Below, piece by piece: positions 16,727 to 37,856 of a stretch of DNA of 64,000 nucleotides. Origin of the DNA: Sphingomonas sp. AR_OL41 (lineage in GTDB: Bacteria > Pseudomonadota > Alphaproteobacteria > Sphingomonadales > Sphingomonadaceae); assembly GCF_029911635.1 (NCBI RefSeq), contig NZ_JARYTI010000003.1, positions 171,716 through 235,715 on the forward strand. The letters are read 5' to 3'. Positions within the stretch are counted from its first letter, which is position 1; each line of letters begins with the position of its first letter. The notes beneath the pieces are model-generated. The model was not told where the DNA came from, did not search any database, and saw only the letters and a list, made by a program, of their open reading frames with translations. The translations under genes and the position numbers were made by a program.

Positions 16727-18001
16727 ATGCACAATATGCGAATGAGTCGGATGCTGACGATCGGCATGGCGGGCGCCGCCATGGCGCTGGGCGCGTTGCC
16801 GGCGATGGCGCAGGACGCCGCTGCCGACATCGACCGAATGATCGACGCGACGGCATCGCCCGATGGCGCGCTCAAGCTGGCGCGCACACAGGCCGATCAG
16901 GGCGACCTGACGGGTGCGGCGGCAACGCTCGAACGCGCGCTGCTCGCGCATCCGGACACGGGCAGCGCCGATGTGCGGCTCTATTATGTCGCGGTCCTGT
17001 GCCGGCTCGACGATCACGGTCGCGCGCGGATCGAGGCAAGCCGCATCGATTCCAGCAGCGCATCGACCGCCGCAATCGGCGAGGCCCGAACCGCCTGCGG
17101 GTCGCTCGACCTGCCCGCCAGCGGCGGCGCCGCCGCGAACAGCGGCGTGATCGGCAATGTTGCGCTGGGTTTCGCCTATGACACCGACAACAGCGCCGCG
17201 CTCAGCCCGGCCTTTGCCCTTCCCGGTATTGCCGTGCCGAGCAATGACGGCCTGTCGATCGTCGCATCGGCGCAGGTCGACGCGCGCACGCCGGTCGGCA
17301 GCGGTTATGCCTATGGCGGCTTGTCGGGCATGACCAAGAACGCGATCGGCGGACCGAACCTCGATTATCAATTGGGTTCGCTGCGCGCCGGCTTCGGCGC
17401 GCAAGGCAGCGGCGTCGGTTTCGAACTCGGCGGCGTGCTCCGGCATGGCCGGTTGTTCGGCCATCCTTTCTACAGCGAATATGGCGGCCAGGGCGAGCTG
17501 AGCACGGCCGCCGGCGACAGCGCGCGCGTCGCGCTGCGCGGTGAGGTTACGCATCAGGATTATGTCGGCTCGAACGCCTTTTTCGACCGCGACGGAACGC
17601 GCTTCGACCTCGCGGTCGAATATCGCGCCGGCGTGGCGCGCGACCATGGCTGGGTGATCGGCGCCGCGTTCGAGGACAAGACCGCACGCACCCGCAATCT
17701 CGGCTATCAGGGCTGGCGGCTCTACGCGGCGGCGCGGCTGCCGCTGAACCAGGCCGGCACCTACAGCGCGCTGTCGGCAACCGTCCGCCATGTCGATTAT
17801 CGCAACGTCGCGCTGATCAGCGACCGGGTCGAGACACGCTGGTTCGCCCGCGCCGCGCTCGGCACGCCGCTCGGGTCGAGCCCGGTCGATCTCGAAGGCG
17901 CGGTCAGCTACACACACCGCAGCTATAACGCCGCCAGTCTGCTGCATGACTATGGCAGCTTCGGCGCCGAGCTTCGGCTCGTGCTGAACTTCGGCCGCTA
18001 A
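16727..18001 (+). CDS. TPR/outer-membrane beta-barrel protein (SLAM/DUF560-like layout)
   Basis: The 424-residue exported protein has a signal peptide ending AMAQD (about residue 32). A helical TPR-like region (about 35-130, ASPDGALKLARTQADQGDL...) is followed by about 280 residues of alternating, Gly/aromatic-rich beta strands that end LVLNFGR. This arrangement resembles surface-lipoprotein assembly modulators, in which a periplasmic TPR domain precedes a barrel; that is inference from layout only. ATG 16727 is used; 16736 and 16742 are alternatives. The FecR-domain gene follows after 13 nt, so they form a pair. Paralogous pairs often accompany CHASE2 cyclases, and one lies at the far end of this island. 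Confidence 0.65.
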   Translation: MHNMRMSRMLTIGMAGAAMALGALPAMAQDAAADIDRMIDATASPDGALKLARTQADQGDLTGAAATLERALLAHPDTGSADVRLYYVAVLCRLDDHGRARIEASRIDSSSASTAAIGEARTACGSLDLPASGGAAANSGVIGNVALGFAYDTDNSAALSPAFALPGIAVPSNDGLSIVASAQVDARTPVGSGYAYGGLSGMTKNAIGGPNLDYQLGSLRAGFGAQGSGVGFELGGVLRHGRLFGHPFYSEYGGQGELSTAAGDSARVALRGEVTHQDYVGSNAFFDRDGTRFDLAVEYRAGVARDHGWVIGAAFEDKTARTRNLGYQGWRLYAAARLPLNQAGTYSALSATVRHVDYRNVALISDRVETRWFARAALGTPLGSSPVDLEGAVSYTHRSYNAASLLHDYGSFGAELRLVLNFGR

Positions 18002-18014
18002 GGGGACACGTACC

Positions 18015-18836
18015 ATGAACCATCGTTTCACCTTGCTCGCCACGGCTGCTCTGGTCGCAGCCTCCCCCCTTCCAGCCGCCGCGCAGACGGTCGGAGTCAA
18101 CGCCGCCGTGGTCAACGACGTGCGCATGAAGACCGACGCCAATCCGAGCGTCCACCGCGCGGCGGTCAAGGAGCGAGTCGCGCTCGGCAACGACATCGCC
18201 ACCGGACCGTCGAGCCGGCTGCAGGTGCTGCTGCTCGACCACACCAACTTCACCGTCGGCGCGAATGCGCGGTTGAAGGTCGATCGCTTCGTCTATGACC
18301 CCGCGAAGAGCGCCAGCGCGGTCGGCCTGTCGGTGACGAAGGGTGCGTTCCGCTTCATGTCGGGCAAGCCGCTCCACGCCAATCCCGGCCAGTCGCAGAT
18401 CACCACGCCGGTCGCCTCGATCGGCATTCGCGGTACGATCGTCGAACTGGCGGTCGGTGCCGACGCGCTGGCGGTGATCGGTCATCAGCCCGGCCTGCCG
18501 TCCTTCACCGCCGACCCCGAGACGGCAACACTGATCTTTCTGCGCGGCCCCGGTACCGGCGCGCAGGGCGGTGAGCAACAGGGTGCGATCGACGTGACCG
18601 CCGGCGGCACCACCGGCTCGATCGCCGGATCCGGCCAGGCCTTTTTCGTAGCCGGCCCCAACCAGGCGCCGATCGGGCCCTTCACCCTCTCGGCCGAAGC
18701 ATCCGAACAGCTTGCCATGCTGCTTGGCCGACGCGGCAAGAGCGCCGGTCGCTTCGATAGTCCACTGGTCCAGAATCCGATCATCGATCAGTTCTTCGAG
18801 GCCGGCGAAGGCGATCCGGCCGCCCAGATCCCCTGA
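18015..18836 (+). CDS. FecR-domain periplasmic protein
   Basis: The 273-residue protein has a signal peptide (cut after AAAQ, about residue 24) and a FecR-like beta domain: VALGNDIATGPSSRLQVLL, then LKVDRFVYDP, then TPVASIGIRGT (about residues 50-150). The C-terminal third is Gly-rich and then helical. Here FecR is not attached to a sigma-factor or TonB receptor pair; it is exported and linked to the TPR/barrel gene. It is probably a periplasmic or surface structural domain and not an anti-sigma factor. Confidence 0.8.
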   Translation: MNHRFTLLATAALVAASPLPAAAQTVGVNAAVVNDVRMKTDANPSVHRAAVKERVALGNDIATGPSSRLQVLLLDHTNFTVGANARLKVDRFVYDPAKSASAVGLSVTKGAFRFMSGKPLHANPGQSQITTPVASIGIRGTIVELAVGADALAVIGHQPGLPSFTADPETATLIFLRGPGTGAQGGEQQGAIDVTAGGTTGSIAGSGQAFFVAGPNQAPIGPFTLSAEASEQLAMLLGRRGKSAGRFDSPLVQNPIIDQFFEAGEGDPAAQIP

Positions 18837-18880
18837 GACCGAAATCGGGACCGCCACGGCATAATCTTTTGCTGTTCGAC

Positions 18881-18913
18881 GCCCCGTGATTGAGGCAGAA
18901 AGCCTGCCGGGGC
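18881..18913 (+). other. Stem-loop in the leader of the pentaheme gene
   Basis: GCCCCG / CGGGGC enclose an inner GGC-AGAAA-GCC stem in the 129-nt interval between the FecR gene and the cytochrome gene. It does not match a riboswitch I know. It may attenuate read-through or stabilise the downstream message. Confidence 0.35.
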
Positions 18914-18965
18914 GGCGGGCCCGCGCGATCGGTCACCGGCTACCGCAAAGGGGAGTAGGCGTTGC

Positions 18966-20363
18966 ATGGGCCTTGGGCGCCCCGGCATCGAATTTGGGCA
19001 GGGCGCGTCGGTGCTGGGGGCAGCGTTGGCGCTCGGTGCCTTGTTGCTATCGCTGTTCATCACGCCGCCGAGCGGCGCCGGGGCAGCGGACCGCGTCGCG
19101 CCGGCCTTTCAAGGCGTAGCGAGCTGCGCCGGCACGACCTGTCACGGGCGGCTCGAGGCGGACGGCGCGGTGGTGCGCCAGGACGAGCTCAAGCTTTGGC
19201 AGGAACCCTCGACCCCCGGCGGAGCGCATAGCCGCGCGTTCACCGTGCTCAATGGGACGCGCGCGCATCAGATCACCGCGACGCTCGGGCTCGGCGAGCC
19301 GGCCAGCGCGCCGGCCTGCCTCGGTTGCCATGCCACGCCGGCCGGCGACCCGCGTGGCGCACGCTTTTTGACCAGTGACGGCGTCGGTTGCGAGGCCTGC
19401 CATGGCGCGGCCGGCGGCTGGATAGCGTCGCACTACAGCGTCGGCGCCAGCCACGCCGCCAATGTGTCGCGCGGCATGGTCGCGCTCGATCGCCCGGCGA
19501 CGCGCGCCGCGCTGTGCCTCGATTGTCATTTCGGCAGCGCCCGCAACGGCCAGTTCGTCAGCCACCGCATGATGGCCGCCGGCCATCCGCGCATCGCCTT
19601 CGAGCTCGACCTGTTCTCGACGCTGCAGCTCCACCACAATGAAGACGCTGACTATGCCGCGCGAAAAGGCCGTAGCGACAGCGTACGGATGTGGGCGGTC
19701 GGCCAGGCGATGGCACTCGGCCGTGAAATGGCGCTGTTCGCCAACCCGGCGCGCGGCAGCGAGGGTGCCTTTCCGGAATTCACTTTCTTCGACTGCCACA
19801 GCTGCCACCGGCGCATCTTCGACCAAGCCGATCGCGTGAAGACATGGGAGGCCAATCCCGGCCGCCCGATCCCCGCCGGCATGCCGCCGTTCAACGACGA
19901 GAACATGATCCTGCTCGCCGCCGCCGCGCGCGTCGGCGCGCCCGGCCTCGCGCCGCGGCTCGATGCCGACAGCCGTGCCTTCCACGCCGCCATCGCGCGC
20001 GATCGCGGCGCGGCGGTTGCCGCCGCCAACCGGCTCGGTGCGACCGCCAATGCGCTCGCGGCGGCGCTCGGCAATGCGCCGACCGGTGGCGACAGCGCCT
20101 TCGCGATGGTCGATGTCGTCGCCGGCCCGGTACTGTCGCCGCGCTTCACCGATTATGAAGGATCGGCACAGGGCGTGATGGCGATCGACACGCTGCTCAA
20201 CGCGCTGGTCAGGCAGGGCCGCGTCACGACCGGCGCGGCCGCCGGCATCCGCGCCAACATCAACCGTGCCTATGCGGCAGTGAAGGACCCCAACGCCTAT
20301 CGACCGGGCGACTTCCGCGCGTCGCTCGCCGAGGCAGTGCGCGCGATCAGGGCGCTGCGATGA
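18966..20363 (+). CDS. Pentaheme cytochrome c family protein
   Basis: The 465-residue exported protein has a hydrophobic N-terminal segment (about 14-33, signal peptide or anchor) and five haem-c motifs: CAGTTCH (54-60, the rarer CX4CH), CLGCH (118-122), CEACH (142-146), CLDCH (184-188) and CHSCH (277-281). Extra His residues (His86, His101, His156 and the HH at 223-224) could be distal ligands. The layout resembles cytochrome c554-type multihaem proteins. The last 170 residues are helical without haem motifs. It is the first haem protein of the island; a periplasmic electron carrier is the likely role. ATG 18966 is placed just after AGGCGTTGC. Confidence 0.85.
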   Translation: MGLGRPGIEFGQGASVLGAALALGALLLSLFITPPSGAGAADRVAPAFQGVASCAGTTCHGRLEADGAVVRQDELKLWQEPSTPGGAHSRAFTVLNGTRAHQITATLGLGEPASAPACLGCHATPAGDPRGARFLTSDGVGCEACHGAAGGWIASHYSVGASHAANVSRGMVALDRPATRAALCLDCHFGSARNGQFVSHRMMAAGHPRIAFELDLFSTLQLHHNEDADYAARKGRSDSVRMWAVGQAMALGREMALFANPARGSEGAFPEFTFFDCHSCHRRIFDQADRVKTWEANPGRPIPAGMPPFNDENMILLAAAARVGAPGLAPRLDADSRAFHAAIARDRGAAVAAANRLGATANALAAALGNAPTGGDSAFAMVDVVAGPVLSPRFTDYEGSAQGVMAIDTLLNALVRQGRVTTGAAAGIRANINRAYAAVKDPNAYRPGDFRASLAEAVRAIRALR

Positions 20364-20396
20364 GAGATGTATCACTCACATCCGCGATATATTGCT

Positions 20397-20486
20397 CCTC
20401 CCTTTCAGAGAGGGGTCGGGGTGGGTGGCGGCCTCGCAGAGACCTGCGCCTGTGGCACCCACCCCACCCCCCCCCTGAAAGGGAGG
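20397..20486. repeat. Palindromic repeat inside the 5' end of the lipoprotein gene
   Basis: The left arm (CCTCCCTTTCAG..) and right arm (..CTGAAAGGGAGG) are inverted repeats, each followed inward by a GGGGTGGGTG / CACCCACCCC stem. The element starts 34 nt after the pentaheme stop and ends exactly at the GTG chosen for the next gene. It is unlike the two other repeat families in this window. Confidence 0.75.
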
Positions 20487-22447
20487 TGCCAGGAAGGAGA
20501 AGCCGCTCCACCACTCTCCTCGCGAGTATCGCATTGATCCTCTCGGGCTGCGGCGGCGGCGGGTCAGGCGGCAGCACGCCGACGCCCACCCCTGCCCCGG
20601 CACCCGCGCCAACCGGCCTCTATACAGTTCCGGCCGCCGAGGCGCTGAGCATCGCCGACGTGCAGTCGGTCATCGCCCATGCCGCCGCCGAGGCGAACGC
20701 GCGCCATCTGCCCGGTGTGATCGCCGTCACCGACCGGGTCGGCAATGTCCTCGCCGTGTTCCGCATGACCGGCGCGCGCGCCACCGCCGTGACCAGCCCC
20801 GCGCCCAACGGCGTCAACATGGACGCGCAGAACCTCACCATCCCGGCCGAGGCCGGTGCGATCGCCAAGGCGGTTACCGGCGCGTACTTGTCGAGCAGCG
20901 GCAATGCCTTTTCGACGCGCACGGCGAGCCAGATCGTCCAGCAGAATTTTCCGCCCGGTTCCTCCACGCTCGGTCTCGAAAGCGGCCCGTTGTTCGGCGT
21001 GCAGTTCAGCCAGTTGCCCTGCTCAGACCTGTCGGCGCGCTATGGCGCGAGCGGCGGTGCGGCGCTGATCGGGCCGAAACGCTCCCCACTCGGCTTGTCG
21101 GCCGACCCAGGCGGTTTCCCGCTCTACAAGAATGGCGTGGTGGTCGGCGGCATCGGCGTCATGGCGGATGGCGTCTATGGTTTTGACCCCAATGCGATCG
21201 ATATCGACAATGACCCGGAAGAAGCAATCGCGCTCGCCGGCACACTCGGTTTCGAGGCGCCCGAGAGCGTGCGCGCCGATCATGTCTATGTCGACGGCAC
21301 GCAACTGCGCTTCACCGACATGACCTATACCGGGCTGATTGCCACCGGCGCGGCAAGCTACGCCGGCACGGACCCGGCGCTGGGATCGCTCGTCGCGGTG
21401 CGCGGCTATGCCGTCGCGACGATTATCTCGGGCGCCGCCTATGGCAGCGAAGCATCGGGCGTGCGCGCGTCGACCACGAGCGAATTCTCCAACCGCGACG
21501 CCTTCGTGTTGACCGACGGCGCGGGCAACAACCGTTTCCCGGTCCGCGCCGGGACCGATGCCGGCGATGTCGCGGCACCGCTGAGCGCGACCGAGGCGCG
21601 CGCGATCCTCGAAGAAGCCTTCGGGGTGATGAGCCGCGCGCGGGCGCAGATCCGCCAGCCGCTCGACAGTCGCGCCCAGGTGACGATCTCGCTGGTCGAT
21701 ACGCGCGGCGCCGCGCTCGGCATCGTCCGCGCGCCCGACGCGCCGATTTTCGGCACCGACGTGGCGTTGCAGAAGGCGCGCACTGCGGCGTTCATGTCGA
21801 GCCGTTTTGCTGCGCCGCAATTGCTTGCGGACCCGAGCGCCGATGTGCAGCACTTCGTGGCGGCGACGCGGACGTTTCTGCATGATCCGAATGCGCTGAC
21901 TGGCGCATTTGCCTTCACCGATCGCGCCGGCGGTCTGTTGTCGCGCCCGCATTTTCCCGATGGCGAGATTGCGCGACCCAACGGGCCGTTGTCGCGCCCG
22001 ATCGCGCAGTTCAACCCGCTCTCGACCGGCCTGCAATCGGCTCTGATCCTGACCAATGTTGCGCAGCATCTGGGCTTCGTGACCGGTGCGAGCGGAACCG
22101 ACACCCCGCAGCGCTGCTCGTTCATCCCCGATGCCGCGCCAGGACAGAACCGCTTGCAGAACGGTCTGCAGATCTTCCCCGGCTCGGTACCCGTTTATCG
22201 CGGCAATGTGCTGGTTGGTGGGCTCGGCGTGTCCGGCGACGGCATCGACCAGGACGATATGGTCAGCTTTCTCGGGCTCTCGAACGCGGGGTTGCGCGTC
22301 GGCGGAATCAGCAATGCGCCGGTGGCGATCCGCGCCGACAATCTCGTCGTCGATCTCGGCGACGCGCAGGTGCGACTGCGATACGTCAACTGCCCGTTCG
22401 CGCCGTTCCTCGATACCAGTACGCAGAATGTGTGTGCCGGGCTATGA
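20486..22447 (+). CDS. Lipoprotein with two GlcG/HbpS-like haem-binding domains
   Basis: With GTG 20486 as start, the 653-residue product begins with an Arg-rich n-region, a hydrophobic core and the lipobox LSGC, then a Gly/Pro/Thr linker (GGGGSGG, PTPTPAPAPAP). Two GlcG/HbpS-type domains follow: the first begins VPAAEALSIADVQSVI, the second PLSATEARAILEEAFGVM, each with a GGIGV/GGLGV loop. The family includes the extracellular haem-binding HbpS. The frame is open back to an ATG at 20360 that overlaps the pentaheme stop (ATGA), but that start would put about 42 repeat-encoded residues before the signal peptide. It lies in the middle of the cytochrome cluster, so haem delivery or sensing is plausible. 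Confidence 0.75.
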   Translation: MPGRRSRSTTLLASIALILSGCGGGGSGGSTPTPTPAPAPAPTGLYTVPAAEALSIADVQSVIAHAAAEANARHLPGVIAVTDRVGNVLAVFRMTGARATAVTSPAPNGVNMDAQNLTIPAEAGAIAKAVTGAYLSSSGNAFSTRTASQIVQQNFPPGSSTLGLESGPLFGVQFSQLPCSDLSARYGASGGAALIGPKRSPLGLSADPGGFPLYKNGVVVGGIGVMADGVYGFDPNAIDIDNDPEEAIALAGTLGFEAPESVRADHVYVDGTQLRFTDMTYTGLIATGAASYAGTDPALGSLVAVRGYAVATIISGAAYGSEASGVRASTTSEFSNRDAFVLTDGAGNNRFPVRAGTDAGDVAAPLSATEARAILEEAFGVMSRARAQIRQPLDSRAQVTISLVDTRGAALGIVRAPDAPIFGTDVALQKARTAAFMSSRFAAPQLLADPSADVQHFVAATRTFLHDPNALTGAFAFTDRAGGLLSRPHFPDGEIARPNGPLSRPIAQFNPLSTGLQSALILTNVAQHLGFVTGASGTDTPQRCSFIPDAAPGQNRLQNGLQIFPGSVPVYRGNVLVGGLGVSGDGIDQDDMVSFLGLSNAGLRVGGISNAPVAIRADNLVVDLGDAQVRLRYVNCPFAPFLDTSTQNVCAGL

Positions 22448-22469
22448 CGGGCGGCGCCCTTTCCCCCTT

Positions 22470-22639
22470 CGTCACCCTGAACTTGTTTCAGGGTCCATGC
22501 GCGGTCAGCGGCCACCGGAGCGCCGCTCTTGGTTCATATGACCGCGCATGCGCTCGGGCGAGATTGTGTTCCCCGAACACAATCTTGGCTTGCCGGTGGC
22601 ACGCCAAAGCCCGAACGCTGAAACAAGTTCAGCATGACG
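22470..22639. repeat. BIME-like element with internal perfect hairpin
   Basis: Outer palindromic ends (CGTCACCCTGAACTTG..GGGTCCA and ..GAAACAAGTTCAGCATGACG) flank an internal hairpin AGATTGTGTT / AACACAATCT at 22561-22585. It fills the interval before the beta-barrel gene. The right end contributes an ATG (22634) that opens the barrel frame but is probably not the real start. Confidence 0.75.
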
Positions 22640-22663
22640 ACGTTGAAATGCGGCGGGGCTGAA

Positions 22664-24493
22664 ATGAGCTTCCCGTTATTCCTGCCTCTCGCACTTGTTG
22701 CCGGCCAGATAACGCCCGCGCCGCCACCCCAGGCGACGCCCGACGACCAGCCGATCAACGACAAGCCACCCGTCGACTCGATCCCCGACCGCCGCCGCCC
22801 GGGTTACAACAAGCCGCTGCCCGACGAGGTGACGCAGCGCAATATCGGCGCGGTTCGTCCGCCGCCGCCGACCGCCTTTCCGACCGACCAGATCCCGGTG
22901 CCCGACCGCTGGCGGCTGATCGAGAGCCTTGGCGTGGTGAAAGAGCGCTGGTTCGATCCCTATCATCAGAACACGCTCAAGGGTGACCGGCCGATCGACC
23001 GCGCCAGGGTCAAATGGCTGCCAATCCACGAGGACGACTGGTTCTTCACGCTCAACGCGGTCAGCGACACCGTGGTCGAGCCGCGTACCTTCCCGATCCC
23101 GGTCGGCGTCCAGACGACGAGCCGCCCGCAAAGCCTCGATGTCTTCGGTCAGCAATCGAGCATCGTCGCCTCGCAGACCTTCATCGTCGGCGCATCGCTG
23201 GTAAAGGGATCGACCGCGTTCAAGCCGCCCGAGATCGAGTACAAGCTGACGCTGGCGTTCAACGTCAACTATGCCCGCGTCCCAGAGCGGCGCGTGCTAT
23301 TCGTCGAGCCGAGCAAGCCGACCCACCGCACCGACCAGTTCCTCGGCGTGCAGGAAGCCTATATCGACTATCATCTGCGCAACCTGTCGGACCGTTATGA
23401 TTTCGACTCGCTGCGCGGCGGCATCCAGCCTTTCCAGAGCGATTTTCGCGGTTTCCTGTTCAACGACCAGGCGCTCGGCCTGCGGCTGTTCGGCAATCGC
23501 GACGGCAACCGCCTGCAATATAATCTCGCGGCCTTCTGGCGGCTGGAGAAGGACACCAATTCCGGGCTCAACGACCTGACCCAACGACCGCGCGACGACT
23601 GGGTGTTCGTCGCCAATGTCTATCGCCAGGATTTCCTCGTGCCGGGCTTCACCAGCCAGATTACCGCAGTCTACAACCGCAATCGCGAAGCCAGCCGCGT
23701 CCAGATCGACGACAATGGTTTTCCGGTGCGCCCGGCCCTGCTCGGCACGCTGCGCGGGCGCGACTATGACGTGGTCTATCTCGGCTACAATGCTGACGGG
23801 CATGTCGGCCGGCTCAACCTGACGCTCTCGGCCTATCAGGCGCTCGGATCGGACCGGAACAACTTCTTCACCGGGCGCAAGGCGCGGATCAGCGCGCAGT
23901 TCGCCGCCGCCGAGCTGAGCTACGATCGCGACTGGATGCGCTTTCGCCTGTCGGGGCTCTACGCCAGCGGCGACAGCAACCCGTATGACGACAAGGAGAC
24001 CGGCTTCGACGCGATCCTCGAAAACCCGATCTTCGCCGGCGCCGACACCAGCTACTGGATCCGCCAGTCGATCCCGTTCGCCGGCGGCGGCCGCGCGGTC
24101 GCGATCAGCGGGCGCAACGGCGTGCTCAACGCGCTGCGCTCGTCGAAGGACGAAGGACAGTCCAACTTCAACAATCCCGGCACCGTGCTGGCCGGGGTCG
24201 GCGCCGATTTCGACCTGACGCCGCGGCTGCGCCTGTCGGCCAATGCCAATCATTTGTGGTTCGCCAATACCGCCGTGTTGCAGACGTTGCGCAACGAGGG
24301 CAGCATTCCACGCGATATCGGCTGGGACCTGTCGACCGCGGCGATCTGGCGGCCCAAGGCGACGCAGAACATCGTTTTCCGCTTGTCGGGCGCGGTGCTG
24401 AGCCCGGGCAAGGGGCTGCGCGACCTGTTCGCCGCGACCGACCGCAGCAAACATTATTACTCGATTCTCGCCAATGTGATCCTGAGCTACTGA
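22664..24493 (+). CDS. Predicted outer-membrane beta-barrel protein of the redox island
   Basis: The 609-residue exported protein starts with a short hydrophobic signal (MSFPLFLPLALVAGQ), a Pro/Asp-rich spacer to about residue 75, and about 500 residues of amphipathic strands rich in Tyr, Trp and Arg, ending in Tyr (ILANVILSY) as outer-membrane barrels do. I do not recognise a porin family. Its stop shares one base with the ATG of the decaheme cytochrome (TGATG), so the two are coupled. A large barrel next to a decaheme protein is the layout of porin-cytochrome conduits such as MtrAB, but I see no sequence match to MtrB. ATG 22664 is chosen over 22634, which lies in a repeat. Confidence 0.7.
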   Translation: MSFPLFLPLALVAGQITPAPPPQATPDDQPINDKPPVDSIPDRRRPGYNKPLPDEVTQRNIGAVRPPPPTAFPTDQIPVPDRWRLIESLGVVKERWFDPYHQNTLKGDRPIDRARVKWLPIHEDDWFFTLNAVSDTVVEPRTFPIPVGVQTTSRPQSLDVFGQQSSIVASQTFIVGASLVKGSTAFKPPEIEYKLTLAFNVNYARVPERRVLFVEPSKPTHRTDQFLGVQEAYIDYHLRNLSDRYDFDSLRGGIQPFQSDFRGFLFNDQALGLRLFGNRDGNRLQYNLAAFWRLEKDTNSGLNDLTQRPRDDWVFVANVYRQDFLVPGFTSQITAVYNRNREASRVQIDDNGFPVRPALLGTLRGRDYDVVYLGYNADGHVGRLNLTLSAYQALGSDRNNFFTGRKARISAQFAAAELSYDRDWMRFRLSGLYASGDSNPYDDKETGFDAILENPIFAGADTSYWIRQSIPFAGGGRAVAISGRNGVLNALRSSKDEGQSNFNNPGTVLAGVGADFDLTPRLRLSANANHLWFANTAVLQTLRNEGSIPRDIGWDLSTAAIWRPKATQNIVFRLSGAVLSPGKGLRDLFAATDRSKHYYSILANVILSY

Positions 24494-28587: not shown

Positions 28588-28588
28588 C

Positions 28589-29437
28589 CTAAACCGGCCA
28601 CTCCGCGCGCATGCCGCGCACCAGCGGCTGCAGCTTGGCGTCGAAGCGTGCCAGCACGACATGGTCCTCGACCGTGTCGAACAAGGTGACGAGGTCGCGT
28701 CCGGTCCAGCGATGCAGCGCATAGCCCGGCGGCTCGGCGACGATCATCTCGCGGTTATCGGGCCGCTCGGGATCAATCGGGTTGAGGTCGAGCGCGACCT
28801 GCGGTGCGGTCGAGGGGCAGATCGTGACGGTGGTGCCACGCCACGGCGCGACGATCGCGCGGTGAAGGTGGCCGCACAGGATCGCCTCGATCTGGCGATG
28901 GCCCGCGATCGCCGCGGCGAAGCGTGCAACCCACGGCTCGTCGGCATGCGTCGCCATCCACTCGATCCCGACATCGAGCGGCGGGTGGTGCATCACGATC
29001 ACCGTCGGTGTGTCGCGATCCTCGGCCAGTCGCGCGGCGAGCCACGCCGCGCGCCGCGCGCAGAAGCCGCCGCCGTGCCGGCCGGGCTCCAGCGTATCGA
29101 GCACGATCAGCCGCAACCCTTCATGCCGCAAGCTGTACTGCACGAACCCCTCGCTCGCCGGCACCTTGGGGAAGTGCCGCGCAAAGGCAGCGCGAGCGTC
29201 ATGATTGCCGAGACACGGATAAACCGGGAAGGGGCACGCCGCGAGCGCCTCGGCACAGCGGCGGTAACTCTCGTCGTCGCCGCCGTCGGTGAGGTCGCCG
29301 GTGGCCAGCAGCAGGTCCGGGCGGTTGGGTCCCTCGATCAGCACCTTGAGTACGGCGTCGAGCCGCTGGCGGTTGAACTCCGCCGGGTTCGACGGATCGA
29401 ACCCCAGATGCAGATCGGTGATCTGCGCGATCAGCAT
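28589..29437 (-). CDS. Calcineurin-like phosphodiesterase (CpdA-like)
   Basis: The 282-residue metallophosphoesterase has all class motifs: Asp8-x-His10 (ITDLHLG), Asp48 in GDLTDGG, GNHD (77-80), His in VMHHPP and the GHLH pair. It looks most like cAMP phosphodiesterase CpdA. ATG 29437 gives the canonical MLIAQITDLH start; the longer frame overlaps the upstream cytochrome gene. It is the last of four minus-strand genes after the FAD/cNMP, cytochrome-b and FHA-cytochrome genes and converges on the decaheme gene with a 1-nt gap. Cyclic nucleotide hydrolysis would fit the cyclase and cNMP domains in the same locus. Confidence 0.88.
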   Translation of the reverse strand: MLIAQITDLHLGFDPSNPAEFNRQRLDAVLKVLIEGPNRPDLLLATGDLTDGGDDESYRRCAEALAACPFPVYPCLGNHDARAAFARHFPKVPASEGFVQYSLRHEGLRLIVLDTLEPGRHGGGFCARRAAWLAARLAEDRDTPTVIVMHHPPLDVGIEWMATHADEPWVARFAAAIAGHRQIEAILCGHLHRAIVAPWRGTTVTICPSTAPQVALDLNPIDPERPDNREMIVAEPPGYALHRWTGRDLVTLFDTVEDHVVLARFDAKLQPLVRGMRAEWPV

Positions 29438-29453
29438 TGCCCAGATGGCATGC

Positions 29454-31250: not shown

Positions 31251-31257
31251 CCCGCGC

Positions 31258-32115
31258 TCACCAGTAGAAGAACACGCTGACGATATGCGCGGCGAGCGCA
31301 GCGATCAGCGCGAAGGTGATCGGCACATGCACGTAGAGCCAGACTTCCAGCATCGCCTTCAGTCGCAGATGGCGGCGCAGGCGCGCCAGCATCCCGGCCT
31401 TGCGCTCCAGCAGCGCATCGACCCGGTCGAGCGGATCGGTCGCGATATCGGGCCGGCTGCCGATCCGTGCGCGGATCGCATCCTGCGCGGCGTCGGTCGC
31501 ACAGCGCGGATCGCGCCCCGAGAGGCGCCGCCATAGCCCGCCGCCGAACGGATCCTGAGCGAGCGAACGCGCGACGATCACGGCATCGTCAGGTGCGAGT
31601 GGCTGTGCGGCGTCGTTCAACTGACGGTCGATCGCGTGCAGCGCATCGAGCATCTGCGGCTGGGTCAATTCCTCGCGATTGTCGCTCAGCAATTTCGGGA
31701 TGAAGGCATAGGCAACGATGCCCCACAGTCCCGAGGCAATCACCAGCATCATGAGCGCAAAGGCGAGCGTGTGGACGTTCCAGCCGAACTGGAAGCCGGT
31801 GTGCAGCGTCGCCACGACGATCAGGCTCAGCCCGAGATAGACATGCGCGCTGGTCCACGCCTTGAGCGACCAGCGCCCGCGCGTCATCGCGCGCTTGCGC
31901 ACGCCGAGCAGCGTCAGCCACAGGATCAGCAATGTCGCGATCGTGCCGAGCGTATAGCCGTACCAGCTTCCGCCATTAGGCCGCGGTCGCACGTCGATCA
32001 GCGCATAACCGAGGATCGCCACGCCGCTCAGCGCGAGCGCAACCTTGAGCCAGCGGAATCCGGCATGGCGCAGGAAACCGTCATGGCTCGGCCCGCCGCT
32101 GCGCCGCCGGCCCAT
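31258..32115 (-). CDS. Cytochrome-b-like integral membrane protein
   Basis: The 285-residue protein has about five hydrophobic helices: 22-42, 53-71, 87-107, 113-137 and a C-terminal one after residue 255. Histidines suited to haem b lie in or near them (His91, His105, His115 and two in the last helix, YVHVP and AAHIV). A cytoplasmic loop of about 110 residues separates helices four and five. The gene sits between the FAD/Fe-S oxidoreductase and the FHA-decaheme gene, so a quinol-oxidising or electron-transferring membrane subunit is inferred. ATG 32115 is the first clear start after the upstream stop, with no obvious Shine-Dalgarno; the frame is open further upstream. Confidence 0.7.
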   Translation of the reverse strand: MGRRRSGGPSHDGFLRHAGFRWLKVALALSGVAILGYALIDVRPRPNGGSWYGYTLGTIATLLILWLTLLGVRKRAMTRGRWSLKAWTSAHVYLGLSLIVVATLHTGFQFGWNVHTLAFALMMLVIASGLWGIVAYAFIPKLLSDNREELTQPQMLDALHAIDRQLNDAAQPLAPDDAVIVARSLAQDPFGGGLWRRLSGRDPRCATDAAQDAIRARIGSRPDIATDPLDRVDALLERKAGMLARLRRHLRLKAMLEVWLYVHVPITFALIAALAAHIVSVFFYW

Positions 32116-32132
32116 CGCGGGGGCGCGCGCGG

Positions 32133-34580
32133 CTATGATTCGGTCTCCGTTTCGAGCCGCGACACGCTCAGGAACTCCTCCGGCGCGACACGGATTGCGG
32201 CGCCGGTCGGGCAGGCACGCACACAGGCCGGGCCGCCATCGATGCCCGAGCACATGTCGCACTTGATCGCCTTTTTGGGGTGCTCGATCCCCGGCACGTC
32301 ATGCGCGTGGCGCCACTCCTGCGACGGTTCGCCGGGACCGGGGCCGCGCCCGAACAACAGCCACCCGAGCAAACCGGGTTTCTTCGGCGGCACGCTGTCC
32401 ATGCGGATCACGCCATAGGGGCAGTTGCGCTGGCAATTGCCGCAGCCGATGCAGCTGTCGTCGATCACCACCTCGCCATCCGGGCCGCGATGTATCGCGT
32501 TGGGTGGACAATCGGCCATGCACGCCGGGTTCTCGCAATGCCGGCAACTGGTCGGCACATGGAGATGGGCATAGGTTCGCCCGGTTTCGCGATCCAGCCG
32601 CGACAGGCCATCATGGCTGTCGGCGCAGGCCTTCTCGCAATTGTCACAGCCGACGCAGAGATTTTCGTCGATCAGCAGCACGTCGGTCGCCTCGCCGATG
32701 CCATTGTCGACGAGGAATTTTGCGGTCTGCGAATACATGTCGACCACGCCCGAGAAACTGCCCTTGCGGCCCTCGATGAACGCATTGAGGTCCTGCCGCG
32801 CCGCCATGTCGGCGCGCGCCTTTTCGAGCAGGCGGGGTTTGGCGTCGAGCAGCCGGCGGAACGCCTTGCCGTCGAGCCGGATCACCTCGGACTTGATCGC
32901 CGCCCTGACCGTCGCGGTACGCTTGCCGCCAGCGATCAGCGCCATCTCGCCAACATAGGAACCTGCCGGGAGGTACGACAGGAACACCGGCTTTCCACCG
33001 ACATTCTTCTCAACGATCATCGAGCCGAGCCGGATGACATAGATGTCGTCGCCGTCCTCGCCCTCGGTGAGGATCGCCTCGCCGGCGCGGACGGTCCTGA
33101 TCTCCGACGTGTCGAGAATCTCGGTGATGTCGGCCGAGTTCAGGCCCGAGCCGAACATCTGCAGCAATTGCCGCTCGACCGAGATGCGCGTCACCGCGCG
33201 CGCCGCCGCCGGCACCGAGGCCATCAGCTTGAGCGCGGCGGTGCGCGATACCTCGATGGCGATGACGTCGCCGCCGGCGCGCACCGTCGCACCGCGCCGC
33301 CGGCCCGAGATCAACCCGACCTCGCCGACGATCGAGCCCTGCGCGATCGGCACGGTGATGGCGGGATCGTTGCGATCGACCTCGACCAGCACCTCGCCCT
33401 GGACGATCGCGAACAGCGACGAGCCGGGATCGTTGCGGCGAAAGAGCACGTCACCGGCGGCGAACAGCCGCATCTCGGAATCGAGCATGAACTCGCGCAG
33501 CTGGAGCGGAGAGAGCTCGTTGAGGATCATGACGTCGCGCTTGAGCAGGGCGAGCCACTCATCGACCGAGCGCCGCGCGCGAAACTTCTCGAATTTCTTG
33601 GCGAGGATCGGCTCGTCGGCCGGCTTCAGCGTCGTGTTGCCGTTGATGAACTCGACCACGTCATGGCCCTGGTTCATGCAGTGCTTGATCAACGGGTAGC
33701 CGGCGAGCGCACCGATGACGTAGATGCCCGGCCGGGTCGTTTCGAAGGTCGATGACAGGCGGGGGAATGCCTCGCGATCCTTGCTGGTGAATTCGATTCC
33801 GCACGCCTCGATGAAGGCGCGCGGTGCGGCCGAGCCCATGCGCGCGATCACCCGATCGCAGCGGATCGTCTGCTGCCCATCGCGCGTGTCGAGCATCAGT
33901 TCGCCGGGGCGCACCGCCACGGGCGTGGTTTCGGTACGGATCGTCAGCCGTCCCGACGCAGCCGCCTCGTTGAGCAACTTGACGTTCGCCGCCTTGGCAC
34001 GCGCGAAATCGGCTGACCGGTTGAGGATGGTGACGACATTGCCCTGCGCCGGATCGGCGGCGAGCCCGAGCGCGTTCTCGATCCCCGCATCGCCCGAGCC
34101 GATGACGGTGATGTGTTCATCGACATATTCGCCGGGATCATCGAGCTGATACTGGACATGGGCGCTGTCGGCGCCTTCGCAGCGCATCAGGTTCGGGTTG
34201 CCCTGTGTGCCGATCGCCAGCACCACGGTGTCGGCCGCGATCGTCGCGCCGTCCTTCAACGTCAGCGTGAAATCACCCTTTTCGCCGGAGATGGCGGTGA
34301 CTTCGCTGCGATAACGAACGGCAATCTTCGTCGCGCCGTGGTTCCAGGCTTCGAGAATGACCTCGCGCTTGCCCGCGGCGAACGGCAGGTCGGCACGCAG
34401 CACCAGCTGGCTGGGCGTCGCCATGACATGCTTGCCCTTCTGGTATTTGTAGATCGTGTCGGAGAGGTGATCGGTCTTTTCGAGCAGCACATGGCTGAGC
34501 CCGAGCGCGGCCGCGCGTGCCGCAGCGCTCAGCCCCGCCGGCCCCGAGCCGATGATCGCGATCCGGACGCGGTCACTCAA
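32133..34580 (-). CDS. FAD oxidoreductase fused to two cNMP-binding domains and a four-cluster [4Fe-4S] module
   Basis: From TTG 34580 the product is 815 residues. Residues 1-330 are an FAD/NAD(P)-binding fold with two Rossmann motifs (IIGSGPAG at 9-16 and VIGSGDAG near 168) but no CxxC disulphide. Two cyclic-nucleotide-binding domains follow (about 375-490 and 500-610); both keep the phosphate-binding Gly-Glu...Arg signature (VGEVGLISGRRRGATV, VGEMALIAGGKRTATV). The C-terminus is a NapG/DmsB-like ferredoxin with CVGCDNCEKAC, CRHCENPACMADC, CIGCGNCQRNCPYG and CDMC...CVRACP, enough for four clusters. It is a cytoplasmic electron-input enzyme whose activity could depend on cAMP or cGMP. GGGGGAG 8 nt upstream supports the TTG start. 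First of four minus-strand genes. Confidence 0.87.
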   Translation of the reverse strand: MSDRVRIAIIGSGPAGLSAAARAAALGLSHVLLEKTDHLSDTIYKYQKGKHVMATPSQLVLRADLPFAAGKREVILEAWNHGATKIAVRYRSEVTAISGEKGDFTLTLKDGATIAADTVVLAIGTQGNPNLMRCEGADSAHVQYQLDDPGEYVDEHITVIGSGDAGIENALGLAADPAQGNVVTILNRSADFARAKAANVKLLNEAAASGRLTIRTETTPVAVRPGELMLDTRDGQQTIRCDRVIARMGSAAPRAFIEACGIEFTSKDREAFPRLSSTFETTRPGIYVIGALAGYPLIKHCMNQGHDVVEFINGNTTLKPADEPILAKKFEKFRARRSVDEWLALLKRDVMILNELSPLQLREFMLDSEMRLFAAGDVLFRRNDPGSSLFAIVQGEVLVEVDRNDPAITVPIAQGSIVGEVGLISGRRRGATVRAGGDVIAIEVSRTAALKLMASVPAAARAVTRISVERQLLQMFGSGLNSADITEILDTSEIRTVRAGEAILTEGEDGDDIYVIRLGSMIVEKNVGGKPVFLSYLPAGSYVGEMALIAGGKRTATVRAAIKSEVIRLDGKAFRRLLDAKPRLLEKARADMAARQDLNAFIEGRKGSFSGVVDMYSQTAKFLVDNGIGEATDVLLIDENLCVGCDNCEKACADSHDGLSRLDRETGRTYAHLHVPTSCRHCENPACMADCPPNAIHRGPDGEVVIDDSCIGCGNCQRNCPYGVIRMDSVPPKKPGLLGWLLFGRGPGPGEPSQEWRHAHDVPGIEHPKKAIKCDMCSGIDGGPACVRACPTGAAIRVAPEEFLSVSRLETETES

Positions 34581-34697
34581 CCGCCCCACTCCCCCGTTTG
34601 CCGAAACGGCCGCGACGAACGCTTGCCGCCGCGCCCCACACCTAGCATGGATGTCGGCGCAGACCAGCCATGGCATTGGCACGGAACGGGGGATAGG

Positions 34698-35609
34698 ATG
34701 GCAGCGACATCTCGATTTGGGATCGCCGCGCTGGCGGGTGCGGGGGTATTGCTCGCCGGAACGATCGGCTGGAGGCTGACGTCGCACGACGACGCGACGC
34801 CTGCCCCGACCGCGTCAACCACGCCCACGGCAGACCCTGTCTCCGAACTGCGCGACGCCGTACGCCGAAACCCGAACAATGCCGACGCCTGGATGGCACT
34901 GGGCGATGCACAGGCGGCGACCAACGATTTCGGCAGTGCGGTTCCGAGCTTTCGTCGTGCCACGACACTCGCGCCGGAACGTGCCTTACCATGGTCGGCG
35001 CTCGGCGAAGCGCTGGTCAAGGCCGATCCGCGCGATCCCTTTCCGGCCGCAGCGCTCGACGCGTTCAAGCGCGCGGCGGCGATCGACCCCAAGGATCCGC
35101 GCGCGCGATATTTCCTCGGCGTGCGGCGCGATCTCGATGGCGACCATAAGGGCGCGATCGATGCGTGGTTCGCCATTCTCAAGGATTCACCGCCGGGCGC
35201 GCCGTGGGTCGCCGACATCCGGCGCACGATCGAACAGGTCGCGCAGATCAACAAGATCGATGTCGCGAAGCGCCTTGCAGCCTTGCCGACGCCCGCGCCG
35301 CACGACGCGCTCGGCACAACCGCGGGGAGCGCGATCCCGGGGCCGACGGCTGAGCAGATGCAGTCGGCACAATCGCTGACCCCATCGCAACAGCAGGCGA
35401 TGATCGCCGGCATGGTCGACCAGCTCGAGGCGCGGCTGGCGAAGGAGAAGACCAATGTCGATGGCTGGGTGATGCTGATGCGCAGCCGCATCCAGCTGCG
35501 CGAGCCCGACAAGGCGAAGGCGGCGCTGCGCGCAGCGCTCGCCGCCAATCCCGGGGCAGCGGCACGACTGAACGCCGAGGCGGCGACATTGGGCATCCCT
35601 GCCTCCTGA
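34698..35609 (+). CDS. TPR protein resembling cytochrome c biogenesis CcmI/NrfG
   Basis: The 303-residue protein has one N-terminal membrane helix (about 7-25) and a periplasmic TPR region. One repeat pair is at about 50-150 (NNADAWMALGDAQAATNDF) and another at the C-terminus (EKTNVDGWVMLMRSRIQL), the segment typical of CcmI/CycH and NrfG, which present apocytochrome c to the haem lyase. No other ccm genes are here, so it may be a dedicated chaperone for the island's multihaem proteins. ATG 34698 follows GGGGGATA. It is divergent from the FAD/Fe-S gene (117 nt) and convergent with the cyclase. Confidence 0.75.
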   Translation: MAATSRFGIAALAGAGVLLAGTIGWRLTSHDDATPAPTASTTPTADPVSELRDAVRRNPNNADAWMALGDAQAATNDFGSAVPSFRRATTLAPERALPWSALGEALVKADPRDPFPAAALDAFKRAAAIDPKDPRARYFLGVRRDLDGDHKGAIDAWFAILKDSPPGAPWVADIRRTIEQVAQINKIDVAKRLAALPTPAPHDALGTTAGSAIPGPTAEQMQSAQSLTPSQQQAMIAGMVDQLEARLAKEKTNVDGWVMLMRSRIQLREPDKAKAALRAALAANPGAAARLNAEAATLGIPAS

Positions 35610-35612
35610 CCG

Positions 35613-37856
35613 TTACTTCTCGGTCGCCGAGAAGACACCATCCCAATCGGCACCCGGCGGGTGGGCGGCAAAGTAAGCCGCCCGCTCCCGCATCAGCAGG
35701 TAGAATTTGCGCAGGCCGCAGCTGACCGCCGCGCCCTGCCCTTCGACCGCCAGCCGGTCGGCCAGCGCCCAATCCTGCGCGCGATAGGCATCGAGCATCG
35801 CCTGATGGCGGACGGCAAAGTCGCGAAAGCCGGGTTCCTGTTCGAGACTTTCGTCGCCGAGCAGGCCGAAAATCTCCTCGGGCGCCTCGCGGCCGACGAC
35901 CTTGACGTGATCGAGCGACACGATCGCGAAATGCGGCAAATGACGGCGCAGCTCGCTGCCGATCGCGATCTGCAGGCCGTAATATTTGGTCATCCCCTCA
36001 ATGCGCGAGGCGAGGTTTACCGTGTCGCCGATCAGCGAATAGGACAGTCGCTGCGCCGACCCCATATTGCCGACGCAGCACGGGCCGGCATTCAGCCCGA
36101 TGCCGATGCTGACATTGCCGGGCCATAGCGGATCGTCCGCGCTACGCTTCTCGACATTGATCTCGCGCAGCCGCCGCGTCATCGCCAGCGCGCTGCGCGC
36201 GGCATTGGCATATTGATCGGGGTCGTCGAGCGGCGCGTTCCAGAAGGCCAGCACGGCGTCACCGATGAACTTGTCGATCGTCGCCTTGTTGGCCAGCAGG
36301 ATGTCGCACATCGGGGTAAGGAAGGCAATCAGGAACTGGATGATCTCCTGCGGGGTCAGCTTCTCCGACAGCCGCGAAAAGCCGCGGATATCGCAGAACA
36401 GCACGGTCATCTGGCGCTCCTCGCCGCCGAGCTGGAGCCGGCCGGGATCGTCGACGATCTGTCGGACCATTTCCGGCGAAAGATAGCGGTCGAAGGCGTT
36501 GTGGATATAGGCGCGCTGGCGCTCCTCGCGATAAAAGGTGATGCCGGTTTCGATGACATAGACGAAGATCAGGCCGAGCACCGGCCAGGTCGGATCGAGC
36601 AGCAACCGCGCCCGGCTGAACGCCTCCCAGCTGCCGAGCAGGAGCCCGCCGACCATCACCAGCCCGAGGATCGCACCGCGCGTCGCACCAAGCCATGGGA
36701 GCGAGAAAGCCATGACCAGCCCGAGCAACAGCAGGGCGGCGCGCTCCGCGCCGGTCGCCCAGTCGGGCTGGCTGAGAAAGGTCTTGGTGATGATCTGCTC
36801 GAGCGCCTGGGCGTGAATGACGACGCCCAGTTCGGTGTCCGCCAGCGGGGTCGATTTCAGGTCGTACAACCCTGCCGCGCTGGTCCCGACCAGCACGATC
36901 TGCCCGGCGAAGTCGCGTTCCATCTCGGCCGGGGAAAGCTGGCCGGTCAGCACCTTCCAGGCCGGCACGACGCGCGCCGGATGCGGCGCGGTATAATACA
37001 TCAACAGCCGGCCCTCGGCGGTGGTCGGCACCTCGGAATCGCCGACCTTGAGCGACACGACATTGGCGCCATCGCCACCATGTTCGCCGCTCGCATCGCT
37101 CGATTTCACGATCACCGACTGGGTCTGGTACGCGACACGCAGCGCCTCGAGCGAGAAGGCCGGCAGCAACTGGCCGTTCTCGGTCGAGATCAGCGGCGCC
37201 TTGCGGATGATGCCGTCGCTGTCGGGCGGCAGGCTGACGAAGCCGAGTCCCCTGGCCGCGGCGCGGAGAGCCGGAAGCGGCTGGATCGCGCCGGTATAGG
37301 TCGCCTTGCCGGTTCGAGGTTGGGAGCCGGCATAGGCAAAGCCCATCTTCGGCTCGACCTGCCCGCCCTTGCCGTCGCCGGTCAGGAAATAGGACAGCAC
37401 GACATTGGTCTTGCCGAACGCATCGGCGAGCACCGCGTCATTGTCGGGAAGCTTGCCCAGCACCGCGAGCTCAGCGTCGCGCCCACCCTCGCGACGCAAC
37501 CGCCCGGCGAGCTGCGCTGGCGAGGTGCGGTCGGGCTCGGAAAAGACGATATCATAGCCGATCGCCGCGGCGCCGGCATCGGCGAGCCGGGTGTTGAGCG
37601 CGGCAAGATCGGTGCGCGGCCACGGCCATTGGCCGAAGCGGCGCAGCGTCTCGTCGTCGATGTCGATGACGCGGACGCCGGCGTCCTGATAGGCGCGTGG
37701 CTTGGCGCGCTGATAGCTGTCAAACAGCGGCGCCGAGGCGCGGTCGATCGCCGACACGCCGATCGCCTGCAACAACAGGGCGACGAACAGCGCGGCGAGA
37801 CCGGGCAGGATTGCCCCACCCCGCTTGCGCAACGCCTGCCGCAACCGTCCCCCCAT
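35613..37856 (-). CDS. CHASE2-domain class III adenylate cyclase
   Basis: The 747-residue protein has an N-terminal membrane helix (about 14-38), a periplasmic CHASE2 sensor (about 40-360), three membrane helices (about 372-438) and a class III cyclase domain. Metal-binding Asp residues are visible in FCDIRGF (about 488) and FIGDAVLAF (about 532). The purine-specifying Lys (IDKFIGD) and Asp (IGDTVNLAS) favour ATP, so cAMP is the likely product. The CHASE2 ligand is unknown. ATG 37856 puts the first helix near the N-terminus; the frame stays open to 38021. The cyclase, the cNMP-binding oxidoreductase and the CpdA-like phosphodiesterase make a complete local second-messenger set. Confidence 0.9.
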   Translation of the reverse strand: MGGRLRQALRKRGGAILPGLAALFVALLLQAIGVSAIDRASAPLFDSYQRAKPRAYQDAGVRVIDIDDETLRRFGQWPWPRTDLAALNTRLADAGAAAIGYDIVFSEPDRTSPAQLAGRLRREGGRDAELAVLGKLPDNDAVLADAFGKTNVVLSYFLTGDGKGGQVEPKMGFAYAGSQPRTGKATYTGAIQPLPALRAAARGLGFVSLPPDSDGIIRKAPLISTENGQLLPAFSLEALRVAYQTQSVIVKSSDASGEHGGDGANVVSLKVGDSEVPTTAEGRLLMYYTAPHPARVVPAWKVLTGQLSPAEMERDFAGQIVLVGTSAAGLYDLKSTPLADTELGVVIHAQALEQIITKTFLSQPDWATGAERAALLLLGLVMAFSLPWLGATRGAILGLVMVGGLLLGSWEAFSRARLLLDPTWPVLGLIFVYVIETGITFYREERQRAYIHNAFDRYLSPEMVRQIVDDPGRLQLGGEERQMTVLFCDIRGFSRLSEKLTPQEIIQFLIAFLTPMCDILLANKATIDKFIGDAVLAFWNAPLDDPDQYANAARSALAMTRRLREINVEKRSADDPLWPGNVSIGIGLNAGPCCVGNMGSAQRLSYSLIGDTVNLASRIEGMTKYYGLQIAIGSELRRHLPHFAIVSLDHVKVVGREAPEEIFGLLGDESLEQEPGFRDFAVRHQAMLDAYRAQDWALADRLAVEGQGAAVSCGLRKFYLLMRERAAYFAAHPPGADWDGVFSATEK

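Follow-up and report, generated by a model that had tools for sequence, protein, structure and literature searches.

The locus at positions 16727 to 37856 of a 64-kb window from Sphingomonas sp. AR_OL41 (the window is the whole stretch of DNA that was analysed, positions 171716-235715 of its contig, in a genome of 5.88 Mb) encodes three multihaem cytochromes, a predicted outer-membrane barrel and an oxidoreductase with two cyclic nucleotide (cNMP)-binding domains, here called FADCNB. Judged from its sequence, it belongs to a module that recurs in the Alphaproteobacteria and represents a variant type of multihaem electron chain of the envelope. That its genes behave as one system is supported by their conserved order and their co-occurrence in relatives. 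We tentatively favour, at slightly less than an even chance, the reading that this conserved redox module would move electrons from NAD(P)H across the cell envelope to a substrate admitted by its porin, and that cyclic AMP (cAMP) would gate the entry protein. The most unusual trait of the module is this probable direct second-messenger control. The parts were predicted from Pfam and NCBIfam profile matches compared with curated cut-offs, from motif counts, from conservation in relatives and from structure models.

Haem sites and spread of the module

Just three open reading frames of the window contain more than one CxxCH motif, with 5, 10 and 10 haem-c sites, and these 25 sites comprise 24 CxxCH and one CX4CH motif. 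The first-pass annotation of this DNA had reported three multihaem cytochromes with the same 25 motifs, and both the motif count and its invariance in relatives confirm it. In the pentahaem cytochrome (c5), 5/5 haem sites are invariant in 16 sequences. The decahaem cytochrome with a C-terminal LVIVD beta-propeller (decahaem-LVIVD) retains 10/10 CxxCH motifs in 13 aligned sequences, down to 60% identity, together with more than 10 additional histidines invariant in the same 13. In FHA10, the second decahaem protein, 20 sequences share all 10 CxxCH motifs, and ten further histidines are retained in 19-20 of them; the predicted cytochrome b has His 91, 105, 115, 263 and 277 invariant in 16/16. 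Since the haem motifs are invariant across relatives, they are not due to chance. A C-terminal stretch of the decahaem-LVIVD protein was considered as a repeat and dropped, the stretch being conserved in 13 aligned sequences. Two genome-wide searches were not used as evidence: the haem-c DNA pattern occurs 385 times in the genome vs 204 for the reversed pattern, and a search for the MauG family gave one match, located away from the locus.

Searches with decahaem-LVIVD yielded 6847 relatives among 7998 scored candidates and those with FADCNB 5522 among 7997, the best 120 being listed in each case; among the matches listed, the closest named relatives of FADCNB and of the barrel belong to Sphingomonas sp. 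RT2P30 (96 and 97% identity, respectively). Full-length relatives of the decahaem protein are present in 25/147 genomes of the order, and any match to it in 30/147, the other five being repeat or short-motif matches. A sample of the class gave a match in 20/240 genomes, near full length in this genome, in one family member and in 12 genomes of scattered families (59-72% identity); of the rest, one is cut by a contig end and five are short. The near-full-length matches in a sample of the phylum (349 genomes) all fall within the class. A pattern scan of named genomes confirmed at least 594 loci, of which 80 were kept, with titles naming Sphingomonadales, Caulobacteraceae, or alphaproteobacterial or proteobacterial bins. 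The locus had been taken for an island of a sphingomonad-type organism, a description that fails because the core recurs in relatives and is also found in carriers (genomes with the decahaem gene) outside the order.

Gene order was counted in the 51 kept loci with full flanks and in a second set of 20 genomes. A search for the same order in other genomes had been proposed, and it succeeded: c5, HbpS2 (a double HbpS/GlcG-domain protein), the barrel and decahaem-LVIVD occur together in 51/51 fully flanked loci. They are accompanied by the phosphodiesterase, FHA10 and cytochrome b in 43/51, by FADCNB in 42/51, by the CcmI-type protein in 40/51, by a class III cyclase catalytic domain in 23/51 and by CHASE2 in 7/51. 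The corresponding counts in the second set are 20/20 for barrel, HbpS2 and decahaem-LVIVD, 19/20 for FHA10, 18/20 for cytochrome b and FADCNB, 15/20 for c5, 10/20 for phosphodiesterase and CcmI, and 9/20 for the cyclase domain. Outside the order, 10/10 carriers have FADCNB, cytochrome b, FHA10, HbpS2, barrel and decahaem-LVIVD in this order on one strand, which indicates that the inner- and outer-membrane halves form one unit; an eleventh genome, G617, from outside the family, has a sphingomonad-like arrangement.

The module is also found on plasmids (13 records, 2 typed conjugative), in whose annotations its genes appear as cytochromes, heme-binding, cNMP-binding or hypothetical; both halves are present on the conjugative plasmid pMSHV of S. 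herbicidovorans. Short matches to the decahaem protein occur both within the class and beyond it; they span about 46-52 residues around one CxxCH, and others lie in the propeller. Five short haem matches were inspected (2 outside the class, 3 within): the proteins have 762-854 residues and 10-12 CxxCH, and no match to other core genes was found at E<=1e-4 within 19 kb of them. One of the five adjoins a 5-haem protein and one has a CcmI-like TPR protein (28%) nearby. Another observation concerns a 10-haem protein among them (L173:8539-10827 in G568, outside the class), which matches the ExtM model with 169 bits vs a cut-off of 800.

Table 1. Predicted features of the locus, in window coordinates
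Feature	Position	Strand	Remarks
TPR protein	16727..18001	+	exported judging by its start; putative barrel part, as named in the first-pass annotation; Pfam TPR_19, below cut-off
FecR-domain exported protein	18015..18836	+	PF04773, 35.8 bits
Pentahaem cytochrome c5, c554-like	18966..20363	+	1 CX4CH and 4 CxxCH; PF13435
HbpS2, double HbpS/GlcG-domain protein	20360..22447	+	PF03928; lipobox-like start (by eye)
OMB, predicted outer-membrane barrel, AlgE/OprD-like	22634..24493	+	18 strands in model; start possibly 22664
Decahaem cytochrome with C-terminal LVIVD beta-propeller	24490..28587	+	10 CxxCH; PF08309
Palindromic dispersed repeat, ~105 bp	24540..24645	+	within the reading frame of the decahaem gene, over its signal-peptide region
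CpdA/SpdA-like metallophosphoesterase, predicted cyclic-nucleotide phosphodiesterase	28589..29437	-	PF00149, 69 bits
FHA10: FHA domain, membrane helix (by eye) and 10-haem domain, predicted periplasmic	29454..31250	-	above Pfam cut-off for PF00498, PF14537, PF14522 and PF22113
Cytochrome-b561-like membrane protein	31258..32115	-	PF01292, 24.1 bits vs cut-off 30.1 (below)
FADCNB: NAD(P)/FAD oxidoreductase, two cNMP-binding domains and 16-Cys domain	32133..34589	-
FADCNB cNMP-binding domains	33219-33470 and 32844-33098	-
CcmI/CycH-type TPR protein, predicted cytochrome c maturation helper	34698..35609	+	PF23914, 62 bits vs cut-off 42
CHASE2 and class III adenylate cyclase	35613..37856	-	catalytic domain 35883-36416; PF00211

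Four-base overlaps join c5 to HbpS2 and the barrel gene to the decahaem gene; the latter (ATGA, 24490-24493) is real and bears out the coupling of the two genes noted earlier. The plus- and minus-strand gene sets converge head-on at 28587/28589, the CcmI/CycH-type gene is divergent from FADCNB, and the TPR and FecR genes are peripheral, being near 3/51 and 4/51 fully flanked relatives. Pfam matches uphold the first-pass assignments of the FecR, HbpS-like, cytochrome-b-like, CcmI-like and FAD/Fe-S proteins, with b561 below the cut-off. The cyclase, the phosphodiesterase, the FHA domain, the LVIVD propeller and the two cNMP-binding domains lie in the same coordinates and had gone unnamed. The ~105-bp repeat has 81 matches in this genome (self and both orientations counted), and the N-terminus of HbpS2 (~20400-20500) is repeat-like in appearance.

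The surroundings of the module vary. After the pentahaem gene, a GspE-type cluster is found in 4/10 and a GspF-type one in 5/10 carriers outside the order; type II secretion genes in this place (GspE, GspF, pseudopilins, GspK) were Pfam-checked in G174 only (L061:13783-19976), and matching genes are present in G304, G344, G232 and G301. Directly upstream of c5, S. herbicidovorans and G146 carry genes for two-partner secretion (ShlB/FhaC-type) together with a long neighbouring gene (L088:1-6689, L085:1925-3733). A small protein between FHA10 and HbpS2 (L061:2177-2707), exported judging by its start and with no Pfam match, has equivalents in 6/10 carriers outside the order.

Predicted entry protein and cyclic-nucleotide layer

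In FADCNB, 16 cysteines are kept in 138-139 of 139 sequences, within a ferredoxin-type domain for four predicted [4Fe-4S] clusters. A thioredoxin-reductase-type disulphide was ruled out, as the four other cysteines form no CxxC. Glu and Arg are retained by the two cNMP cassettes in 139/139 sequences, of which 18 come from the second genome set and go down to ~50% identity; these are the residues that matter in the phosphate-binding cassette of cyclic nucleotide-binding (CNB) domains. The cyclase matches PF00211 with 74.5 bits (cut-off 21.9) and is the single PF00211 match of the genome. Class III cyclases rely on two metal-binding Asp, an adenine Lys, an Asn and an Arg; among the locus-associated cyclases both Asp, Lys and Arg are kept in 36/37 and Asn in 35/37. 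Cyclases near the module form two distinct groups, with 40-74% and <40% identity to the catalytic domain in the window. The phosphodiesterase has its metal motifs kept in 70-71/72 sequences and stays below the NCBIfam equivalog cut-offs (SpdA 128.8 vs 400 bits, CpdA 88.2 vs 225 bits). Together, the cyclase, the phosphodiesterase and the cNMP-binding domains suggest cAMP control of the system.

Within the family, 25/25 carriers (this genome included) possess FADCNB together with one or more class III cyclases, vs 0/23 listed non-carriers for FADCNB (at E<=1e-100) and 2/23, both in one genus, for a class III cyclase. Fisher's test gives 3e-14 for FADCNB and 1e-11 for the cyclase, with the 23 being part of the family's non-carriers and related genomes not being independent samples. 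The genera that hold both carriers and non-carriers (g1, g2, g3, g5, g6 and g15) agree in 6/6 cases as to the cyclase, an argument against common ancestry as the sole cause. In 16/25 carriers a listed cyclase is no more than 20 kb away from the decahaem or the FADCNB gene, vs 1.2 expected if placement is presumed uniform; these distance counts leave out three cyclases, a single one in each of G080, G105 and G127.

We regard it as possible, with the balance somewhat against it, that cAMP from a dedicated periplasm-sensing cyclase binds the two pockets of an NAD(P)H:cytochrome entry enzyme and so gates outer-membrane electron flow; the multihaem system in question is widespread in Alphaproteobacteria, comes with a porin of its own and is carried on conjugative plasmids as well. 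In Shewanella, CRP is the route of the cAMP effect on electron transfer. The likeness is that cAMP affects an envelope electron chain; as far as the partly available sources go, cAMP acts there via a transcription factor, whereas here the cNMP pockets lie inside the redox protein, where control would be exerted. cAMP control of such a chain was not found in the literature searched, which covered few subscription papers, and no paper joining a CNB domain with multiheme, flavin and 4Fe-4S was found among the matches listed, nor did this literature contain one on LVIVD together with multiheme cytochromes. The available parts of PMC9226611, PMC10654088 and PMC6344600 contain nothing on this system.

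Proposed electron path and competing explanations

The barrel is modelled with 18 strands and is AlgE/OprD-like. Its earlier placement in the MtrAB/PCC (porin-cytochrome conduit) type is not supported: there is no match to MtrB_PioB (PF11854) even at E<=10, the one PF11854 match of the genome lying elsewhere (19 bits vs a cut-off of 23), and for MtrB 28 segments are predicted (PMC5877670, available in part). From an 18-strand AlgE/OprD-like channel, an MtrAB-style sheath around a decahaem wire would not be expected, and going by this model such a sheath seems unlikely. MtrB is not among the listed structure matches of the barrel, an absence which is no evidence. Like MtrCAB/PioAB, the locus encodes an outer-membrane barrel with a decahaem cytochrome, and FHA10 has an MtrC/MtrF-like Pfam domain; unlike them, it has this different barrel, and a 1,300-residue decahaem protein with a propeller replaces the compact MtrA. 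Among the NCBIfam models, neither DmsE/MtrA nor OmcA/MtrC is matched by the decahaem-LVIVD protein at E<=0.001, FHA10 and c5 reach 15-16 bits with the DmsE/MtrA model (cut-off 192), and FHA10 does not match the NCBIfam OmcA/MtrC model. From AlgE/OprD (Occ) channels, in turn, the barrel differs by its 9-15% identity, its extra conserved 120-residue N-terminus and its coupling to a cytochrome.

The first-pass annotation had seen no recognisable terminal reductase and no match to known loci. The searches agree with this: none of the NCBIfam enzyme and conduit models (Nrf, octahaem tetrathionate, CycA, DmsE, OmcA/MtrC, ExtM) is matched at its curated cut-off, and no close characterised homologue was found in profile and structure searches, the pentahaem protein and HbpS2 alone giving weak structure matches among the parts searched. 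The best-scoring named family for the decahaem-LVIVD protein is ExtM; ExtO gives 27.6 vs 200 bits and ExtN 27.3 vs 200 bits. PMC11976967, in its available part, deals with ExtM relatives in cable bacteria and does not treat this locus. The Geobacter cluster extHIJKLMNOPQS, as described in the available part of PMC5877670, has a porin unrelated to PCC porins, 5-, 10- and 12-haem cytochromes, a Rieske protein and a cytochrome b. Going by this description, the two clusters are alike in architecture only, each grouping a non-PCC porin, a pentahaem and two larger multihaem cytochromes, a cytochrome b and an Fe-S protein. The flavin/cNMP entry protein, FHA, propeller, HbpS2, cyclase and phosphodiesterase are, by the same description, extras of the present locus, and rhodanese, Rieske and selenocysteine parts belong to ext and not to it.

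The favoured chain, whose order follows from predicted locations and gene order, would lead from NAD(P)H via FAD and the four [4Fe-4S] clusters of FADCNB to cytochrome b, FHA10, the pentahaem cytochrome and finally the decahaem-propeller protein. At the outer membrane, the decahaem protein would receive a soluble acceptor through the barrel, candidates being a metalloid oxyanion, an Fe(III) chelate or a quinone. The cyclase may make cAMP upon a periplasmic signal sensed by CHASE2 and the phosphodiesterase may remove it, and binding of cAMP to FADCNB would switch electron entry on or off. A complete conduit from cytoplasm to cell surface, as proposed earlier, survives in part: a predicted path from a cytoplasmic flavoprotein to the outer membrane and the MtrC/MtrF-like domain are retained, and the analogy to the MtrAB/PCC barrel is not supported.

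Several points weigh against this chain and its control. The propeller of the decahaem-LVIVD protein is modelled confidently, and its haem domain is not modelled (pLDDT, the predicted local distance difference test, is 47); a PDB fold search with this model returned generic beta-propellers, and because the haem part is unmodelled no fold is claimed for it. The barrel model is moderate (pLDDT 67), with the conserved first 120 residues unmodelled. ExtM is matched with 68.2 bits vs a cut-off of 800. FHA10 exceeds the cut-off of PF22113 (MtrC/MtrF domains II/IV; 38 vs 30 bits), which would also suit a surface conduit, and among precomputed domains an MtrC/MtrF-like one also occurs in some decahaem-LVIVD relatives. 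The inner-membrane half is missing within 10 kb in 8/51 loci, which have the c5-to-decahaem half only, and likewise in the 28 kb examined of the conjugative plasmid pMC4 of Sphingopyxis indica; in 9/25 family genomes the halves are >20 kb apart or on separate contigs. The limits on the co-occurrence and proximity counts given above belong here too, and in eight searched carriers outside the family, with 3-39 cyclases each, the co-occurrence test is uninformative.

Other explanations divide mainly over what happens at the outer membrane. In one that we consider unlikely, the locus would be a trans-outer-membrane conduit of the MtrAB/PCC type, in which the decahaem protein would sit in the barrel as a plug and deliver electrons to insoluble acceptors outside; the pairing of barrel and decahaem genes in 20/20 and 51/51 carriers, their overlap in the window and the PF22113 match of FHA10 fit it, and the absence of an MtrB_PioB match of the barrel and of OmcA/MtrC and DmsE NCBIfam matches of the decahaem-LVIVD protein, with the strand number of the barrel model, stand against it. 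In a variant, type II secretion, which exports MtrC and OmcA in Shewanella, would put the decahaem-propeller protein on the surface. Room for such a location is left by the type II secretion genes that come after c5 in several of the carriers outside the order; in this genome itself, a GspE-like gene scores 624.8 bits (cut-off 630.25). It is quite improbable that a metalloid oxyanion (tellurite, selenite) is the specific acceptor, admitted by the porin and reduced by the cytochromes in a detoxification or electron-spill system. The ext-like organisation and ExtM as nearest named family favour it. In Geobacter, a mutant in the ext porin shows reduced selenite and tellurite reduction (PMC5877670, in part); according to the available part of PMC6148476, however, extHIJKL has an effect on Fe(III) and Mn(IV) reduction too. 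Carriers of the Erythrobacter type exist, and in related phototrophs, by the available parts of PMC5488091 and PMC5023272, tellurite reduction is membrane-associated in most strains tested, one strain needs intact cells and one purified enzyme is NADH-dependent, but those parts do not tie the purified 62+55 kDa enzyme to these genes, and the phototroph activity is a lead only.

The direction of flow and the role of the cyclase can also be read otherwise. Electrons might run inward, the decahaem-propeller protein oxidising an outside donor and FADCNB making NAD(P)H: such a chain is reversible in principle, sequence does not give its direction, and sphingomonads are mostly aerobes. We hold this to be decidedly unlikely; Pfam and NCBIfam searches found no donor-oxidising enzyme in the locus, and an entry protein that combines NAD(P)/FAD, Fe-S and switch domains would suit controlled exit of reductant equally well or better. 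That the proteins belong, unrecognised, to a known pathway of multihaem enzymes for nitrogen or sulphur compounds (nitrite, hydroxylamine, tetrathionate) is very improbable, for although the pentahaem protein reaches 43 bits with the cytochrome c554/c-prime model of Pfam and weakly matches the c552 structure 5ze8 (E 3e-4), its scores with the NrfH, octahaem-tetrathionate and CycA models are 12-14 bits vs cut-offs of 134-400, and no PDB sequence relative was found for the two decahaem proteins. Finally, the cytochromes may be one system to which the cyclase is incidental, serving CRP-type regulators and travelling with a FecR/TPR signalling set. The genome has five other cNMP-domain proteins that the cyclase could serve; 9/25 family carriers have no listed cyclase within 20 kb, among them 5/9 of the genomes with split halves, where neither half has one; and TPR-barrel, FecR and class III cyclase genes stand together in L140, L151 and L165, at varying positions around the module, perhaps as a separate periplasmic signal set. 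Against this explanation, which we rate as rather unlikely, stand the invariant cNMP pockets of FADCNB in 139/139 sequences, the co-occurrence in 25/25 vs 2/23 genomes and the split-half genomes in which the sole cyclase lies 17-18 kb from FADCNB (3/9; in 1/9 it lies 14 kb from the decahaem gene).

Significance for sphingomonads and their relatives

Multihaem envelope chains have been studied mostly in anaerobic metal reducers. The sphingomonad-type group is large, mostly aerobic and known for pollutant degradation, and the module described here would place a conserved chain of this kind in such a group. If cAMP gates the entry protein as we propose, a cyclic nucleotide acting directly on an electron entry enzyme would regulate respiration-like chains in a new way, fast and post-translationally. 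The gene set also offers candidates for those NADH-dependent reductions in erythrobacters and sphingomonads that lack assigned genes.

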